Source of the DNA: Amphibalanus amphitrite | Taxonomy: Eukaryota > Arthropoda > Thecostraca > Balanomorpha > Balanidae | Length of the DNA stretch: 64,000 bases | Direction of reading: 5' to 3' | Assembly (NCBI RefSeq): GCF_019059575.1 | Contig: NW_024881986.1 | Span: 159,501 to 223,500 of the forward strand | Shown here: piece by piece, positions 3,594 to 11,517 of the stretch | Layout of the letters: each line of letters starts with the position of its first letter | Numbering within the stretch: position 1 is the first letter of the stretch | Notes under the pieces: generated by a model | The model's input: the letters and a program-made list of their open reading frames with translations, nothing else | What the model was told of the DNA's origin: nothing | Database searches by the model: none | Made by a program: the position numbers and the translations under genes

Positions 3594-3730
3594 ACGTATC
3601 CGATAGTCGAGGTATATCAATACGGGCACAGGGACATTGAAAATGGAAAGAAACACGTAACAGAAGAAAAGCCATCCACCGACAGATAATTTGATAGGTA
3701 CGGGATACGGATGATTCAATTTAATATGAA
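3594..3730 (+). pseudogene. Relic of F-box/LRR gene intron 6
   Basis: The sequence AACGTATCCGATAGTCGAGG onward, with GGGCACAGGGACATTGAAAATG and the CATCCACCGACAGA block, matches intron 6 of the F-box/LRR gene (about 29650-29770 in copy 1 and 51060-51190 in copy 2). The match resumes on the far side of the TA element at about 2630-2676. No exon is preserved, so this is a displaced or decayed piece of a further gene copy, 12 kb ahead of the array. Confidence 0.6.
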
Positions 3731-3746
3731 CAGAGAGAGAGAGAGA

Positions 3747-3825
<79 letters not shown>

Positions 3826-3836
3826 GGAGAGAGAGG
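3731..3836. repeat. (GA)n microsatellite
   Basis: About 105 bp of almost pure GA dinucleotide with a few GGGA interruptions. A C run follows at 3888-3900. It creates low-complexity open frames that are not genes. Confidence 0.95.
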
Positions 3837-3839
3837 GCT

Positions 3840-4831
3840 AATGTTAAAATGCCCAAATCTATGGGGGCACTGTACCCTGGTGCCACCCCCCCCCCCCCCC
3901 TGTTCCGCCACCTATGGACAGATGTTAGGAAATCAAACCTGGAAGCCAAATAGGTCAGTTTTGTTAAAAATAATTCAGCAATCCACTTCTGCCAGGTATG
4001 AAATCCCAATCCAGAATGTTCGTATGAGCTATTAGTATGTGCAACACATTTTCGATTTAGTAAGAATAGCAACCAACCTCTAATACTTTCCTAATAAAAT
4101 TACAAGTTCAAAAATGGCATCAACTTCTTCAGATTACCTTCTTATGGCATCGTGCCAACTGCCAAGGCCATCGTGCCACGTGTGGTGCCATGCTGTGCTT
4201 TCGTTATGAGAGAGCCTAAAAAAAAAGACAAACGAAATTCACAGCTCACGTTTTGGTAATATTGTTTTATTACGTCATTATCGTTTGACCAATGAAAAAT
4301 CTTAATTTGACTAAAACCGTAATGATTCCAAAAGATTCCCCGTGATAGGCCCTTCAAACTGATGACGTAAGATATTGTGATTCTTTTGAAAAGTGAATAA
4401 AATAAAGATGCAAGGTGCACACCCGGCTCAGGGCCATGTAATACTGTTTCAGCTTACGTTTACGTCATTAAATTCAACGCTACAAAGATGATATTCACTA
4501 ACAATCGTATCGTAAAATTATGTGAGGCAGAAAAAATGAACATTCTCTTGAAAAAAAACTCCAGACTTTTGATTTCCAGTATGATTTTTTATTTATTTTC
4601 ATTATACTCGAAGGTAGAACGCTTAGCTCATTGCTTATTTGAAATGACGTCACGAGTTCTATTTAGGTACTGAATAATCATTTTACGGTAAATATCCAAG
4701 GCCATTATAATTGATATTCAAGCTTGTGCTATTTAACAGAAAGTACAAGCTCACATGCATAAACACATTAACCACATGTACCCATACGAACCGCCGGTGC
4801 CGCTCAGAGCCTGTGCTCCCTGGCGCGGCGG
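3840..4831. other. No gene seen; AT-rich spacer
   Basis: I see no exon, transposon end or RNA gene here. On the minus strand this is downstream of the deubiquitinase stop codon. Two AATAAA-like hexamers occur on that strand (near 4265 and 4590) but no clear poly(A) tract marks a retrotransposon 3' end. Confidence 0.5.
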
Positions 4832-7126
4832 TTACAGCGCCCCGCCGGCTCCCTCTGCGCTGACCACTTGGTTATATAGGTCTTTGTGGAGGTAGAAGAA
4901 TATGTAGCCGTTTCTCTGGTGTCCGTCGCCCATAATGTCGGCCTCGTCGACACAGCTGACTCGGCTATCGTTATAGTGGTACCAACGGTCCCTGCCGACG
5001 CTGTTGACGTCCGACACGTAGTGTCCGGAGTGCGTGGCGCCGCCGTAGTGGCTGACGACGCCCACCAGCCGGTAGGTAAAGTCGCCGGCCAGGTCCACTG
5101 AGCAGAGAGACTGGCCGTCTTCCACGCAGAAATCCGAGATATGTGCCTTCTCCGAGGTGTCGGCCGGCGCTCCCTTCCCCAGCGACCTCACGATGGCTTC
5201 CTGGAGCTCGCCATCTTCGTCCTCGCGGGTCCGCGCCGGTTTGGACTCGGAGTCAGCGTCCAGCACCACCAGCTCATCCTGCGCTGGCGGCGGCGGCGGC
5301 AGCGGCTCGGCACCGGTCGCCGGTGAAGAGGGACGCGCCGGCGCTGCGGTTCCGGCCGACACCGGCGATCCGGCGGCGGCGGACTCCGGCGGGCCGGCGC
5401 TGGCGGTCGGCACTGATGACGGTCCACAGGCGGCGGGCGGCGGCGACGGACCCGACCTGGGCGCCTCAGACTCCTCGAAGTCGGAGAGGGTGCACAGGGA
5501 AGGCTTCCTGCACTTCCACTCGGGAGGCCGGGTGACGTCATCCGCGACATATTCGTTCAGTGAAAGGAACTTGGGAATGCCGACATTGGCGCGGATTTTC
5601 TTCGATTCCTCCCCAAGGAAGACGTACCGGTTGAGCTGTAGTATCAGCGTCCTGGGCAGCTGGCTGATTTTGGTGGTGACGCGGCACTCATCATGCTGGC
5701 AGTGCTGACAGAGCCGCTCGCGCCGGTCAGGCCGCATGCACATTCGCAGTGCGTCCTGCAGCGTGGGCGTCTCATTGCCCTGGCGGCGCGGCACTCTGAC
5801 AAACCAGCATATGTTTTCTTGCCGCTTCAGCGCCGTTTCATGACACTTGGTGCACATGTAGCTCTCGACGATCTGGTACTGAAAGTTGTCTCGCACCGGG
5901 TTGTCGGTCGGTCGCCGCGCGTCGATCTCTTCCTTCATAGTGTCTAGCAGGCGCAGCAAGAACTCATTGGCGTCCTGCATCTCGGTACCTCTGAACGCCG
6001 GGTCGATGTCGGCGAACACGTCGCGCAGATCGTTGAGATGGCTGGAGACTGATTTGCTGAGTGCCTTCTGGCGCAGCACCATCAGTTTGGCGACGGCACG
6101 CAGCGTGCGGCACTGGCCGCTCTCGTCCAGGCCCGAGATCAGGGAAATCATCTCACTGAGGAACGGTCGCAGGCCCAGCAGTGACTGCAGGGTGGCGTTC
6201 TGATAGCAGGAGTTCCCGTAGTTGGGTAGGCCGATATACAAAGGGTCCTTGCCATCATTGTCGGAGTCGAGCGGCCGGATGGCCGGGACTAGCTGCAGGC
6301 CGCGGCTGGCCGCCTGCGCCTTGCCACAGTGCAGCTGCGGGTTCTTGTCGCCCTCGCCGGACTTGCGCAGCGACGGCGGCGGCCGCATCTGTGGACTGGC
6401 GGCGGACAGCGAGCCGCCGGCTTCGGCCGAGTCACCGTAGAACCGGCGCGGGCCGACGCCAGCCACCTGCAGCAGCTTCGTGTTCTCCCTGTCAGCGCGG
6501 TCCGGGCAGCTGGGCGCCCGCTCCTTCGAGCGCGACAGTCGCGAACCCTTGGCCTCGGACGGGTGCATGGTCCCCAATGTAGATCCACCTTGGCTCGACT
6601 TTGAGAGGGAATGACTTGAGTCGACGTCAGATGCCTGCCTTCCGGCGTTTTCATCGCTATCTGGTTCTTGGCTGCATGGTGACGACTCAGCAGTGCAGGA
6701 AGGCTGCGCATGGACTCGTCGAAGCGTTGACGTGTCGTCAGCTGCTGCCAGTCGCACAGCAGCCGCGTTGCCACGTGCCACTGCCACCGATATGCGCTGC
6801 ATTAAGTGTTCCATGTCTCGCCGATCGCCGGTTGTCTGAACGATCCGCTGACCGAGTTCTCTTAAGAAGTGAAGACTATCAGTGCCAAAAGCACCAGATG
6901 TCTCGACGGCGACTGTTTGGAACAGGTACCGCCGACTTAAGTCAGCGTAGCGTCGACGTTTGCGTCCTTCGGCAGCAGTGGCTGCGGCACTCGCGCGCGA
7001 TGCGCATGCGGATACTGAGGAGGCACTGAAAGTGTCGACGCACGTTGCATCCCAAATGAGGCATTTCCCCTCTGAGTAAGGGAAGGTTGTGATGCCATCG
7101 GGACGGCGTCCGTCGCCGCGATCCAA
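4832..7126 (-). CDS. Retroelement endonuclease C-terminus fused to USP37-like ubiquitin protease
   Basis: A 764-codon frame; the first codon used here is TTG and the frame is open further upstream, so this is a continuation of the retroelement rather than a true start. Residues 1-125 hold the restriction-like endonuclease (RRPDG at 7-11, WDATCVDTF at 25-33) and the conserved tail ending RGNAA. Residues 126-295 are a Ser/Arg-rich linker. Residues 296-764 are a peptidase C19 domain closest to USP37/26/29: Cys box NYGNSCYQN (Cys307), MQDANEFL (383-390), zinc pairs CTKC (425) and CQHC (473), LILQLNRY, His box ATHSGHYVSD (His702) and YHYNDSR (Asn719/Asp720). A UIM-like helix (EDGELQEAIVRSLG) lies in the Pro-rich insert. 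All catalytic positions are present. USP genes normally have many introns and this has none, which suggests an RNA-derived copy. Expression is unknown. Confidence 0.85.
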   Translation of the reverse strand: MDRGDGRRPDGITTFPYSEGKCLIWDATCVDTFSASSVSACASRASAAATAAEGRKRRRYADLSRRYLFQTVAVETSGAFGTDSLHFLRELGQRIVQTTGDRRDMEHLMQRISVAVARGNAAAVRLAAADDTSTLRRVHAQPSCTAESSPCSQEPDSDENAGRQASDVDSSHSLSKSSQGGSTLGTMHPSEAKGSRLSRSKERAPSCPDRADRENTKLLQVAGVGPRRFYGDSAEAGGSLSAASPQMRPPPSLRKSGEGDKNPQLHCGKAQAASRGLQLVPAIRPLDSDNDGKDPLYIGLPNYGNSCYQNATLQSLLGLRPFLSEMISLISGLDESGQCRTLRAVAKLMVLRQKALSKSVSSHLNDLRDVFADIDPAFRGTEMQDANEFLLRLLDTMKEEIDARRPTDNPVRDNFQYQIVESYMCTKCHETALKRQENICWFVRVPRRQGNETPTLQDALRMCMRPDRRERLCQHCQHDECRVTTKISQLPRTLILQLNRYVFLGEESKKIRANVGIPKFLSLNEYVADDVTRPPEWKCRKPSLCTLSDFEESEAPRSGPSPPPAACGPSSVPTASAGPPESAAAGSPVSAGTAAPARPSSPATGAEPLPPPPPAQDELVVLDADSESKPARTREDEDGELQEAIVRSLGKGAPADTSEKAHISDFCVEDGQSLCSVDLAGDFTYRLVGVVSHYGGATHSGHYVSDVNSVGRDRWYHYNDSRVSCVDEADIMGDGHQRNGYIFFYLHKDLYNQVVSAEGAGGAL

Positions 7127-7221
7127 GCCGGCAGGTTCTAGGACTGCTGGAAGGCCGGCGGCAGCGAGGCCACGTTTGATAATGTTATTGAGCTCTGCGT
7201 GGCGGGGTAGTCGACCGGCGC

Positions 7222-9612
7222 TTAACTGGCAGCTGAGACCGTGCAGACCACGCTCATCAATGTCGGCCCCGCCCCGCAGCGGCAGCGATGGGGAGCGCAG
7301 AGCTCAGCGCCAATCCGCAGAGCGATTGCTGTCCGCAAGGTGTCAGGCTCAATCAGGGTGCCTACACTTGGTGACGGGTAGGCGTTGAGCCAGGCGCCTG
7401 AGTGTGGCTGTCCGGCGGCTCGGAGCCTAGCTTGGCACACCTTATCGGTGCTGCTGTCTAGCAGGTGCGTGCTGATAGACTTGGCCTCTGAGCGGTCCCA
7501 TTCGCGTTGAAGGTGCCGCTTTTCGTCGTCTGGCGGTGTTAGACCGGTGCGGTTTTGCCACTCACTGATCAGACGCCGTGTGGTCTCGTTGAAGTCAGCT
7601 GAGGTAGTTTCATTGATGGCTGCCACCATGGCCGCAGATGCGACATGCGATGCCAGGTGAGCGGGGAGGGCTAGATCGGAGGTCATCCTCACACCAAGCC
7701 CGCCAAGACTGACAGGCAGTGTGGCCTGTCGCCAGGCGTCGTCGCGCAGCTGAACGTTGGTGATCGCCTCTAGACCCTTCCTCACGACCTCGTCGATCCC
7801 AGAAAGCAAGTCAATGTGTCTGTGGGCTGGGGAACTTCTCAAAAGGTAGAGTAGGCGAGGCATAGAGACATAGTTCTTAAGCAAGAAGAAGGATTGGTGG
7901 GGCTCTTCCATGCTTCTGAGACGCCGTACTAGTTTCTCAATCTCCTGCTTGCCGAGTAGGAGTCTGTGTCGTGTTTGAGAGTCATTCATTGGTGCGCCGA
8001 GCAGTTCCAGGTCATCCAGGCAGACTTCATGAGCGTCAGGGAGGATGCCGTGCAAATCCTCCAAGATGTTCTGTTTTTGCTGGGCCCCTTGCTTTCCCAG
8101 GAAGGTGCATTCGCATTTCGCACCGTTGAAGCGCAGGCCAGCCTTCTCAAAGTTCTCTTTGACGCGCTCAATGCTGGCGAGCACTTTTGGCAGCGGACCA
8201 GCCAGAGTGCCGTCGTCCAAGTACCAGACGTTGATGTCTGCATCTGCTGCTTTGGTGGCGGTGTCTATGGCCAGCGAGAACAGCAAAGAGCTGAGAGGGT
8301 CTCCTTGCTGGATGCCGGTTTTAGACAGCACTTGGCTCTCTCCGATGAACAGGGGAGCAGATTGGCTGTACCCTTGCCATACGAGAGAATAGATGTCAGG
8401 TGCTCTTGCTCTCACTGCCTCCAGCATGCTGTCTCTGCGCACTGAGTTAAAGGCATTTGAGACATCCAGCTTCACGAGTATCCTGTCTTCGCTGGGTTCC
8501 GACTGCTGGATGTATGTTCGAACAGCATGGACTGCCGCCTCACATCCATTTCTTGTGGCCACGCCCAGTTGCACGGGCCTCAGTTCGGCCCCGATTCGTC
8601 CGGAGACTGAGTGCGCAGCTACTTTTGCAGTGATGCGGCGGTACACGCTTCCGACGGCAATGGGTCTAAGGCCGCCGTCCTTCTTACGCAGAGCGATCAG
8701 AGAGGCGCCGAAGAATGCTGGCAAGACAAACTCAGGAAGGCGGCCACATAACGCCAGATTGACGAGAGCCGTCAAAGCTGTGAGAAGGCGTGCTCCGGCT
8801 TCGGCAGTTGTTCTGGAGATCAGAGATCGCAGGTGAGCGGGTCGGACTCCGTCTAGTCCAGCGCTCGAGCTCGGTGGAAATGAGTTGATGGCCTTCAGGA
8901 CGTCTGCTTCAGTAGCTGTTAGCGATGCTGTGCCCTCGTCGGGCGGTGAGACAGGGCGGATATCTTCGGGTGGTTCCGGGTGTTTCTCTTGCATCTTGCT
9001 AATGACATCATCTGTTGGGACCGCAAAAGAATCGTCCGAGGCCAGGAGGCGCAGAGCACCGCGGAGGTCGCCGTCTGTTATCTTCTCTGAGACGCGGCGC
9101 AATAGTGCCATGGTGCTAGGTGGGCGATTTCTTTTGTTCTGAGCTGTCCTTTTACTTGCATGGCGAGGTGGGTTGAAATCATCTTGAGACAAGTTATTAC
9201 GAACTTGAGTGGCTAATGATAGCCTCTTCTTGCTGCCCTTGTTGTCACGGATGGTAAGCGCCAAGTAACCAAAACGCATTAGCTTACGCCATGCGAGGTC
9301 GGTACCCTGGGTTACGGCATCGTTGATGCAATGGGCTAACGCGTCAGCCACAGCGATGCGTGCCCCTTTGGGGATGAAGGGTAAGAGTCGGCATCGCTGC
9401 TTCAGAGAGGCTATCTCGTTGGCAATGTCACTGGTTGGAGGGTCATTCGCTGCAGAGTTCGAACAGCCGTCTCCGAATCGGCAGGATGTGCAGCGTTTGT
9501 TCTGTTTCGCGCATCTGCATGTTTTGCAAGGATTTGTAACGCATTTGCAGCAGCGAGGAGTGTGGCTAACTTGTGTATCTAACGATTCATTCTGAGACGA
9601 GGAGCTGTTCAT
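7222..9612 (-). CDS. R2-like retrotransposon reverse transcriptase
   Basis: 796 codons from an ATG at 9612. Residues 21-50 form a Cys-rich, CXC-like cluster (CCKCVTNPCKTCRCAK...CTSC) where R2-type proteins carry DNA-binding fingers. The reverse transcriptase core spans about 230-560: LRPIAVGSVYRRI (315-327), LVKLDVSNAFNSV with the first catalytic Asp (383), GIQQGDPLSSLLFSLAI (433-449) and WYLDDG with the YLDD pair (464-467). The C-terminus enters the Cys/His knuckle (HRCRCG) and is then cut off by a single-base frameshift; the missing remainder continues in the adjoining frame. No apurinic endonuclease is present, as expected for an RLE clade. It is unbroken to that point, so the copy is fairly young. 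Confidence 0.9.
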   Translation of the reverse strand: MNSSSSQNESLDTQVSHTPRCCKCVTNPCKTCRCAKQNKRCTSCRFGDGCSNSAANDPPTSDIANEIASLKQRCRLLPFIPKGARIAVADALAHCINDAVTQGTDLAWRKLMRFGYLALTIRDNKGSKKRLSLATQVRNNLSQDDFNPPRHASKRTAQNKRNRPPSTMALLRRVSEKITDGDLRGALRLLASDDSFAVPTDDVISKMQEKHPEPPEDIRPVSPPDEGTASLTATEADVLKAINSFPPSSSAGLDGVRPAHLRSLISRTTAEAGARLLTALTALVNLALCGRLPEFVLPAFFGASLIALRKKDGGLRPIAVGSVYRRITAKVAAHSVSGRIGAELRPVQLGVATRNGCEAAVHAVRTYIQQSEPSEDRILVKLDVSNAFNSVRRDSMLEAVRARAPDIYSLVWQGYSQSAPLFIGESQVLSKTGIQQGDPLSSLLFSLAIDTATKAADADINVWYLDDGTLAGPLPKVLASIERVKENFEKAGLRFNGAKCECTFLGKQGAQQKQNILEDLHGILPDAHEVCLDDLELLGAPMNDSQTRHRLLLGKQEIEKLVRRLRSMEEPHQSFFLLKNYVSMPRLLYLLRSSPAHRHIDLLSGIDEVVRKGLEAITNVQLRDDAWRQATLPVSLGGLGVRMTSDLALPAHLASHVASAAMVAAINETTSADFNETTRRLISEWQNRTGLTPPDDEKRHLQREWDRSEAKSISTHLLDSSTDKVCQARLRAAGQPHSGAWLNAYPSPSVGTLIEPDTLRTAIALRIGAELCAPHRCRCGAGPTLMSVVCTVSAAS

Positions 9613-11517
9613 GATGCAGGTTCATCGCTGTCGAATTACCTTCTCGGCCGAGGTAAGGTTCATAAAAGCTCTGTGAATGATGACTAAAGAATCTTCGAAA
9701 CTGAAGCAAATTAATCTGAGGCGCACGTGACTACGGCAAAAAATCAAACGAGTTTTTTAGTTTTCACTGTGCTGAAACTTTGAAAAATATTCGAAAATGT
9801 GTACATTTCTGAGCACTATATCGTAAAAGATTTTAACATTTGAGTCTTTAAAGTATAGGCTGAGAAAAAAGCATTTAAAAACAAACAAAATGACATAAGT
9901 TTCGACTGCCGAAGACTTAATGGACACTTATACAAGTCGGAGCAAAAAGACACGTCCGATTATTCCGATACCGATTATTCCGAAAGACACGTCCGATCGG
10001 CCCCCGGTCAACAGACATGGTAGCCCAAATCTAGTCGGATATGAAAATTCTTCTAAATCCATAGACTTAAATGCTAAATTGACTATATTTGAGAGGGTTT
10101 TATGAATATACATGACCAGATAAAGAAAAAAGCGAGATGCTATCTTGTAGATTAAGTCGTCTACTATCTGCGACTTTTGAAGTGTTTTTCAATCTGAGGT
10201 ACGGAAATCGTGTTCCCAAGAGACTGAAAGTAGCCATGCTTTACATTAGACCCAATGGCAAAAATTCGTAATCTGACGAAATTGGCCATTTTTACGTCTG
10301 ATTTATGAAAATTCTAGACAGGATATATAAAAACCCGAGATGCTATCAAGTGGGAAATTTCATTGTCTATTACCGCTTTCTGAAGTGTTTTTCGATCTGA
10401 GACCGGCAAATCGTGTTCCCAAGAGATTGAAAGTAACCCTGTTCTACAGCAAGACGATGGCAGAATTCTAATATTTGATTAAAGATATTTTAGGTGATAA
10501 TAACTTTACTACTAATTGCAATGCTTCATTGGAAAGCTCTACACTGGCACTATCATCGGTATTTGCATTGCTATTTCACAGAACAACAAGAAATAACGTT
10601 TTGAAGCCTTTGAATATTGACTTACTTTTCATCGACGGGCTCGATCCCCATCACCACCAACAATTTTCCGGGAAGTCAGGATTTTGCAGATATTTCAGCA
10701 GAATTGCAGAGCTGTGTTAATGCTACGGCACTTAAATACACATTTTAAGAAAACTGCTTTTTTTCTTAGCATGAGTTAGGTCTCAGAAACAGCAACATGT
10801 CGATATAATGAGGAAAAATAAGTGCAAATTATCGCGCAAGAGAGTATCCTTAGCTCCCTAGCAACCACCTAGCAACGTAAGGCAAAATAGTAAACAACTC
10901 TTGTTGATATCAGGTACTCAGCCTTGGAAGCACACTAGACGGTCACCATACTGGGCTTCATACTGAATTTTGCATACCAGAATGGATGTTTCGAACTAAA
11001 ATTATTTTTTCGCGAAATTTATCTTTGTTGCCCTACTATTTTTCGTAAAACTGAGATATACAAACTTCATGATATCAAAAATAATATTGTGATAATGAAA
11101 ACCGCCATATAAAACACGATAATTGCTGAGATCATGCCTACTAAACTTGGTCCTACCCCCTAATTCAATACCTATACCCTGCGTCCGATAGCGAAATTGA
11201 TATTTCGCTTCCCATCGCTTCCGCAGGCTGTTGAATATTTTTATACTTTTGTTTATATCTCAGTTTATTTTATCAAATATTGAAATACCTTTACCTAACC
11301 AAGCCACATGTGTCAGTATCATCTTTTATTGTTTATCAATCAATTGTGTTAGCTGGAAACTGGAAAGCCTCATGGTTGTCTGATGCAAGATTGTCTTATC
11401 AATATAATTATGTAGATTCTAACATGAATTGTGATGTGGTAGGTACCTAGTAATGTATTGTTCATTAGTCATTACTTTGACTTACCTCTATGTTAATTGT
11501 TAATGCAAACTTTTCTG
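9613..11517. other. Gene-free AT-rich spacer
   Basis: Apart from the direct repeat at 10133-10460, I find no exon, element end or RNA gene. A short palindromic stretch of CCGATTATTCCG units lies near 9956-9985. Confidence 0.5.
10133..10460. repeat. Direct repeat, two diverged copies about 210 bp apart
   Basis: GAGATGCTATC...GAAGTGTTTTTC...ATCGTGTTCCCAAGAGA...GAAAGTA occurs at 10133-10258 and again at 10340-10457, in the same orientation and with substitutions. The function is unknown. Confidence 0.75.

Follow-up and report, generated by a model that had tools for sequence, protein, structure and literature searches.

As described in excerpts of PMC4640811, the RLE elements R2, R4, NeSL, HERO, and CRE have a single frame with N-terminal zinc fingers, a central reverse transcriptase (RT), and a C-terminal zinc knuckle with a PD-(D/E)xK-like endonuclease (EN). 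The same excerpts describe N-terminal Ulp1-like proteases in NeSL and Utopia-1_TSP. Excerpts of PMC2836005 describe Ginger1 DNA transposons whose C-terminus carries an OTU or Ulp1 domain, as well as a Trichomonas vaginalis protein which combines transposase_11 with peptidase C19.

As listed in Table 1, it was found that the window, the whole 64-kb stretch of DNA analysed here, contains a retroelement copy whose family shares the layout of R2 and related RLE elements and whose RT has R2 proteins as its best PDB matches. The family differs from them in adding a C-terminal ubiquitin-specific protease (USP) and in lying in unlike flanks, with no shared target seen among the copies compared. Like NeSL and Utopia, it joins an RLE non-LTR element to a cysteine protease of the ubiquitin/SUMO world. 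However, the proteases described in those excerpts are Ulp1-like and N-terminal, while the clade of the window copy has a C-terminal USP (C19) that occurs in five kinds, two of which have parent genes in the same genome. Ginger1 and the T. vaginalis protein also combine a mobile-element enzyme with a deubiquitinase-like protease, C-terminal in Ginger1 and of the C19 type in T. vaginalis, but these are DNA transposons for which the excerpts describe no series of USP kinds and no exchange. The original prediction, made from the letters of this stretch, knew of no non-LTR element with a USP, and no USP in any retrotransposon was found in the literature searched either (a set with little of the subscription papers and bioRxiv preprints, and with Repbase reports outside it).

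To my knowledge, LINE-type elements rarely take up host coding sequence in a stable way. Here, one clade has five kinds of one enzyme class, together with parent genes, apparent replacement scars, and apparent recent swaps in the same genome. With this, two questions can be put to the test: by what means LINE-type RTs give rise to chimeric elements, and whether retrotransposition is restricted by ubiquitination. In such genomes, a gene model annotated as an intronless "USP" may belong to an element.

Table 1. Features of the retroelement copy in the window (positions of the 64-kb stretch).
Feature	Position	Strand	Remarks
Retroelement copy	4724..9971	-	5′ end 9971, 3′ end 4724; 99.3% identity to intact copy L012 over 5248 nt
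Frame with N-terminal cysteine-rich region, RT, and thumb	7222..9621	-	799 aa; first Met 9612; RVT_1 E 8e-18
Cysteine-rich stretch CCKC...CRC...CTSC	9463..9552	-	From translation
Reverse transcriptase, RVT_1 match	8101..8688	-	Pfam, residues 312-507
Doubled GGGGC, +5 nt	7266..7275	-	Comparison with L012
Zinc knuckle and restriction-like endonuclease (RPDG...WDATC ... RGNAA)	6734..7300	-	Motifs in translation
Open frame, endonuclease-linker-USP	4832..7303	-	823 aa, no stop
USP cassette, DNA-level likeness to other RT-EN lineages	4832..6566	-	blastn, L012 matches
USP (peptidase C19/UCH) catalytic domain	4892..6235	-	PF00443 E 3.3e-47, residues 357-804, profile 1-254 of 254
Catalytic Cys366 in LPNYGNSCYQN	6206..6208	-	Translation
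Catalytic His761 in SGHY	5021..5023	-	Translation
Triad Asn778/Asp779	4967..4972	-	Translation
UIM-like motif (as named here) DEDGELQEAIVRSLG within the catalytic domain	5178..5221	-	Translation, by eye
Counterpart of host USP37-type exon A (C917)	6033..6231	-	DNA identity 90%
Counterpart of host exon B (C917)	5845..6035	-	DNA identity 89%; joined to exon A without the host intron
3′ untranslated tail	4724..4831	-	Window copy ends CACAA; most other copies end CACAATAAAA

As predicted, the endonuclease motifs run without a stop into a complete C19 domain, in one 823-aa minus-strand frame. The predicted Cys307, His702, and Asn719/Asp720 correspond to Cys366, His761, and Asn778/Asp779 in the numbering of this frame (offset +59), and both zinc pairs (CTKC and CQHC) are present, as are MQDANEF and the YNDSR following SGHY. 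With its UCH domain, its Cys, QQD-type, His, and Asn/Asp boxes, and its zinc pairs, the protein is a member of the USPs. The predicted extent of 4832..7265 holds the endonuclease tail and the USP, but the whole element is longer. Likewise, endonuclease and USP indeed share a frame, while the RT of the window copy lies in another one; 5 extra nucleotides (GGGGC twice) shift the frame of this copy between its RT and endonuclease parts. The start of the cassette was taken from blastn matches of L012 to L019, L021, L022, L023, and L025, which begin at L012 position 5661 and were converted to window coordinates.

I take the window USP to be of the USP37 type, from its UIM-like insert and the catalytic domain at the C-terminus. 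Its closest PDB entry is USP8 (E 6.8e-16), with no close paralogue among the PDB matches. The USP37 N-terminal UCH_N (PH-like) domain had no Pfam match in the element, in a comparison covering two exons of the host gene, and PF16674, the Pfam USP37 N-terminal family, had no match in the genome in a search whose controls were uninformative. No second copy of the element was found within the window. A long CT/GA simple repeat with G/C runs lies beside the element at 3690-3950. The mitochondrial contig of the genome has trnL(UUR) between cox1 and cox2, which is the pancrustacean order; the host is probably a crustacean, perhaps a barnacle.

Is the fusion peculiar to this copy? The genome of the window (807.6 Mb, 2644 contigs) was searched for copies with both domains joined, and the best 55 of 6314 candidates were scored, giving 82 matches. 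At least nine other copies, on nine other contigs, span the EN-USP junction with 98-99% amino acid identity. Among the matches listed, seven of these copies cover residues 10-823 in frames of 1326, 1446, or 1594 aa; the C1083 copy covers residues 10-823 in a frame of 835 aa, the C381 copy residues 26-823, and a tenth copy, on C39, residues 10-572 only. It was revealed that five copies (L009, L012, L013, L014, and L015) have a single 1594-aa frame which runs from the cysteine-rich N-terminus through RT and endonuclease to the end of the USP. The possibility that all other copies end after RGNAA, leaving a unique junction here, is thereby contradicted. The window copy, L016, L017, and L018 are broken, and L010 and L011 are 5′-truncated into the frame. 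When the last 277 nt were used as a DNA query, at least 40 matches resulted (best 40 of 72 candidates), 17 of them at 97% or higher, including the window copy and partial copies.

The copies have hallmarks of non-LTR retrotransposition. In L012 coordinates, L009-L017 and the window copy, unlike L018, all have 3′ ends that differ by no more than 5 nt, while the 5′ ends vary. Flanking repeats of 10-13 nt were found in four of the ten copies, the longest in 90 mismatched pairs being 8 nt; the repeats of the other six copies, including the window copy, are 5-7 nt and do not exceed this control. L009, L010, L013, L014, and L017 have CACAATAAAA or a one-letter variant, then 11-19 copy-specific nucleotides, and then poly(A). 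These 11-19 nt after the AATAAAA-like signal look as if the transcript had been cleaved in the flank of the parent copy (short 3′ transductions), and such pieces could be used to trace parent and daughter copies.

RVT_1 and nine PDB matches, with R2 and L1 proteins among them, place the RT with those of non-LTR elements. For the intact copy L009, the best match is an R2 protein (E 9.2e-11), and only R2 proteins lie below E 1e-7. The RLE group is indicated by motif only, namely the C-terminal zinc knuckle and PD-(D/E)xK-like endonuclease (RPDG...WD, CxC...HxxxxC), as no Pfam model matched the endonuclease part in the window frames and the scanned element proteins. No match to a Ulp1-like protease of the NeSL/Utopia type was obtained when five element proteins and both window frames were compared with Pfam, and a scan of IMG/VR found no relatives. 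The predicted R2 likeness holds for the RT but not for insertion into 28S rRNA genes, a feature of the R2 clade, since the flanks are unlike among the copies compared. By these motifs and matches, the element is an R2-like RLE non-LTR retrotransposon of an unplaced clade.

Two readings of the fusion were rejected. A unique chimera or a misassembly is ruled out by the near-identical copies on other contigs and the 1594-aa frames at five loci. A host exon read through by chance is also ruled out, since the 3′ boundary shared by the copies encloses the USP and an intron-bearing host gene was located elsewhere.

I found that the backbone carries other kinds of USP as well. From a Pfam UCH search of the genome, the best 111 of 449 candidates were scored (13 of these 111 rows with internal stops), and the kinds were named by the best PDB match, except the USP37 type, which was named from its UIM-like insert and C-terminal catalytic domain. 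The 1472-aa frame of L030 encodes a PHD-like finger (below the Pfam cut-off), RT, and EN, along with a USP most similar to USP2 (PDB USP2 2.6e-107, next USP21 8.1e-79). L031 and its continuation L056 together give a frame of 1933 aa, in which RT, EN, and zf-UBP are joined to a USP most similar to USP16 (PDB USP16 4.8e-86, next 2.6e-25). In L032, a frame of 1836 aa combines two PHD stretches, RT, and EN with a USP most similar to USP35 (PDB USP35 1.7e-51, next 8.8e-22). In L037, EN and a USP8-like domain (PDB USP8 1.2e-80, next 4.8e-60) share a single frame, of which only the EN part of the backbone is covered. Another EN lineage (L033 and L035) has a USP2-like domain, and a third (L034) has a domain of the USP16-like kind but, as far as its translation shows, no zf-UBP. 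PHD-like fingers lie near the N-terminus of L022, L028, L030, and L032, above the Pfam cut-off only in L032. As judged from domain and PDB matches, five kinds of USP are joined to the backbone: USP37-type, USP2-like, USP16-like, USP35-like, and USP8-like. The Cys, QD, and His boxes were found in 16 of the 17 USP proteins examined; the His box is absent from the frame of L025, and the frame of L028 ends soon after its His box.

Further USP-like frames were noted in the genome. A compact kind at C58, C300, C102:107049, C240, C612, C648, C66:833687, C1888, and C16:871833 is 37-39% identical to the USP8-like kind, with frames of 460-1330 aa. Five USP-like matches (30%) at C589:209340-239491, with frames of up to 1442 aa, are probably a tandem array; four of them start 5988-5989 nt apart. 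L038 (C205; C214 alike) and L039 (C496; C1254 alike) have USP frames that are 621 and 814 aa long, and the fetched pieces contain no endonuclease. I take them to be USP20/33-like and USP5-like with zf-UBP, respectively, and they are perhaps intron-poor host genes or retrogenes.

Where did the cassettes come from? The host USP16 gene was found as separate exons on C614 and C792, and five exon stretches are collinear with L031 at 79-98% DNA identity. AG or GT is present at eight of the nine intron borders; at the ninth, L031 lacks 44 nt of the host exon. The L031 sequence runs 91 nt into the host USP16 3′UTR and then into about 37 nt common to three element copies but absent from the host; thus, at least two joins are needed. 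Over 673 codons, the host and L031 differ by dS 0.15 and dN 0.036 (omega 0.24), and over the 358 codons without the insert exon omega is 0.18, in a comparison which includes the constrained host branch. As the original prediction had proposed in naming a captured host mRNA and the host USP37 gene, two exons of a USP37-type gene on C917 (with further matches on C570) are 90% and 89% identical to the window copy, and an intron separates stretches which are contiguous in the elements. These USP16 and USP37-type genes are thus parent-like by exon (79-98% with L031 and 89-90% with the window copy), but differ from the elements in having introns at the borders compared and in being scattered as exons in small frames. 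Since the introns are absent from the elements, spliced mRNAs must have been captured, and at the sequence level the two intron losses show that USPs of the USP16 and USP37-type kinds were taken from spliced host mRNA. In contrast to the predicted alternative of a single chimera made at insertion, the window USP is part of the gene of a multi-copy element and one of several USP captures. Further exon-like USP37-type matches are on C741, C199, C204, C37, C294, C733, and C169 in the match list. Multi-exon matches, from match lists only, are consistent with host USP35 (C292/C301), USP8 (C98), and USP2 (C271, C932, and C203) genes, and I infer a host origin for the USP2-, USP35-, and USP8-like kinds.

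The best explanation, built on comparisons within one genome, is probably that an R2-like RLE clade has C-terminal USPs captured from the host, exchanged, kept by selection, and acting in cis. I hold its structural and evolutionary part with high confidence. The element protein consists of zinc finger, RT, and endonuclease, ending in a USP in several lineages. By the simplest route, the element RT may switch between element RNA and the mRNA of a host USP as its template in the course of target-primed reverse transcription. Such template switching would account for the intronless cassettes, their C-terminal position, the differing 5′ breakpoints, the stubs of older USPs, and the L031 tail. Cassettes would also be swapped between RT-EN lineages, and selection would keep the protease. 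The element USPs are predicted to have deubiquitinase activity, from their active-site boxes, purifying selection, and the interchange of kinds. A generic deubiquitinase tethered in cis to RT-EN might strip ubiquitin from the element protein or RNP, or, where the element inserts, from chromatin and repair proteins, and thereby let the element escape degradation or complete insertion. The capture and swapping of USPs with kept active sites suggest that countering host ubiquitin tagging helps elements spread. The step in which the USP protects the element's own protein is tentative, with a chance somewhat short of even. Whether the whole amounts to an open exchange of deubiquitinases, in which host USP mRNAs are copied repeatedly, one kind takes the place of another at a common C-terminal socket, and cassettes pass from one RT-EN lineage to another under lasting selection to escape ubiquitin-based restriction, is evenly balanced.

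The USP might instead act in trans on a host pathway such as the cell cycle, histone H2A, or innate sensing, and not on the element's own protein. USP16, USP37, and USP2 have native roles in the cell cycle and chromatin, which would fit, as would the kept active-site boxes. However, USPs with different native substrates replace each other on related backbones, and the zf-UBP of L031 is absent from L034. I consider action in trans rather unlikely but worth keeping in mind. Since unlike USPs replace one another, a generic tethered activity is favored over one native substrate, as proposed for action in cis.

Replacement and exchange can be seen by comparing the cassettes with the attached RT-EN. 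All dS, dN, and omega values here are pairwise NG86 estimates, some dS being near or at saturation. Among seven lineages (21 pairs), RT+thumb has 38-78% and EN 43-88% protein identity, with dS from 0.26 to saturated, while the USP catalytic parts are 61-90% identical with dS 0.20-2.89. L012 and L019 have ENs only 50% identical and USPs 90% identical (dS 0.20). Conversely, L019 and L029 are 88% identical in EN (dS 0.26) and 64% in USP (dS 1.83), and L031 and L049 have an EN+linker dS of 0.13 and different USPs. On a 21-row EN tree, the kinds are scattered: USP2 and USP16 each appear at two places, and the USP37 type at four or more. Of the 18 inner branches of this tree, 9 have good support, and there are six open forks. 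Remnants of older USPs precede newer ones: L033 and L035 keep the stub LPNYGNSCYQNAT before the USP2-like domain, and at eight loci (C323, C1256, C1554, C175, C47, C674, C605, and C260) a USP37-type stub, 75-83% identical over 23-24 residues, lies about 73 nt before the USP2 match. On C687, stub and USP2 match are about 7 kb apart. L031 has DPLNMGLPNNG before its USP16 part, as in L049, and L032 a short INLGNSCY before its USP35-like domain. Thus, the cassettes have been exchanged, as they can be much more alike than the attached RT-EN and follow stubs of older USPs.

Could independent captures from the host account for all shared cassettes, with no exchange between elements? Host parent genes do exist, and the two USP16 captures look independent, because L031 is closer to the host (dS 0.15) than to L034 (dS 0.60). 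On C11, a frame of 107 aa contains a short USP2 match of 94%, which could also be a host exon. On the other hand, the USP2 cassettes of L030 and L033 are 97% identical in amino acids (dS 0.05) on ENs that are 61% identical with saturated dS, while the exon-like matches on C271, C932, and C203 have 55-81% identity. Over 127-128 codons, the host and L012 differ by dS 0.45, and L012 differs from L019, L021, and L025 by 0.21, 0.23, and 0.29; since these mutual values are below the host value, the four cassettes look related after leaving the host. The tree of host USP37-type and element cassettes is weak, with supports of 23-44 except 97 for the pair of the window copy and L012. Independent capture as the full account is improbable, and exchange between elements is preferred.

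It was also assessed whether the USPs may be host mRNA pieces carried passively by template switching, functionless for the element. The captured cDNA of L031 includes host 3′UTR, and relatives without the domain are common. Among the scored EN loci (best 150 of 511 candidates), a USP match lies no more than 2.5 kb downstream in 53, and no USP-like match was found there in 91, with frames of up to 1296 aa; thus, the USP is not essential for the clade. A recount with 23 hand-picked places added six EN loci with a USP, one of them (C687) by its stub only. Some loci scored as lacking a USP may hold decayed ones, and distant relatives are under-sampled because a single query produced the list of ENs. 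Constraint on the Pro-rich/UIM insert is loose as well (omega 0.07-1.53, many pairs at 0.4-1.3, among the pairs listed). Nevertheless, all 25 EN frames of at least 1300 aa among the 150 have a USP match, the longest frame without one being 1296 aa; therefore, no other long extension is seen in the scored list. Five kinds of USP are present and several RT-EN lineages share cassettes, with catalytic boxes in nearly all proteins examined. USP catalytic omega between lineages is 0.08-0.32 in all 21 pairs, RT+thumb gives 0.12-0.28 in pairs with finite dS, and host USP37-type against L012 gives 0.05 over 127 codons, with the constrained host branch included. The catalytic parts thus look to be under purifying selection, and passive carriage is quite unlikely as compared with selected USPs. 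A misassembly or a chance open frame, which the break of the window copy between RT and EN might suggest, has practically no chance of being right, as the same junction lies on ten contigs in differing flanks, some with insertion hallmarks, and omega is well below 1.

Among the loci with no USP listed, L044, L045, and L046 share, by eye, an LxRYRxx-like stretch in their post-endonuclease tails. This tail is perhaps the original C-terminus which was replaced by USP capture.
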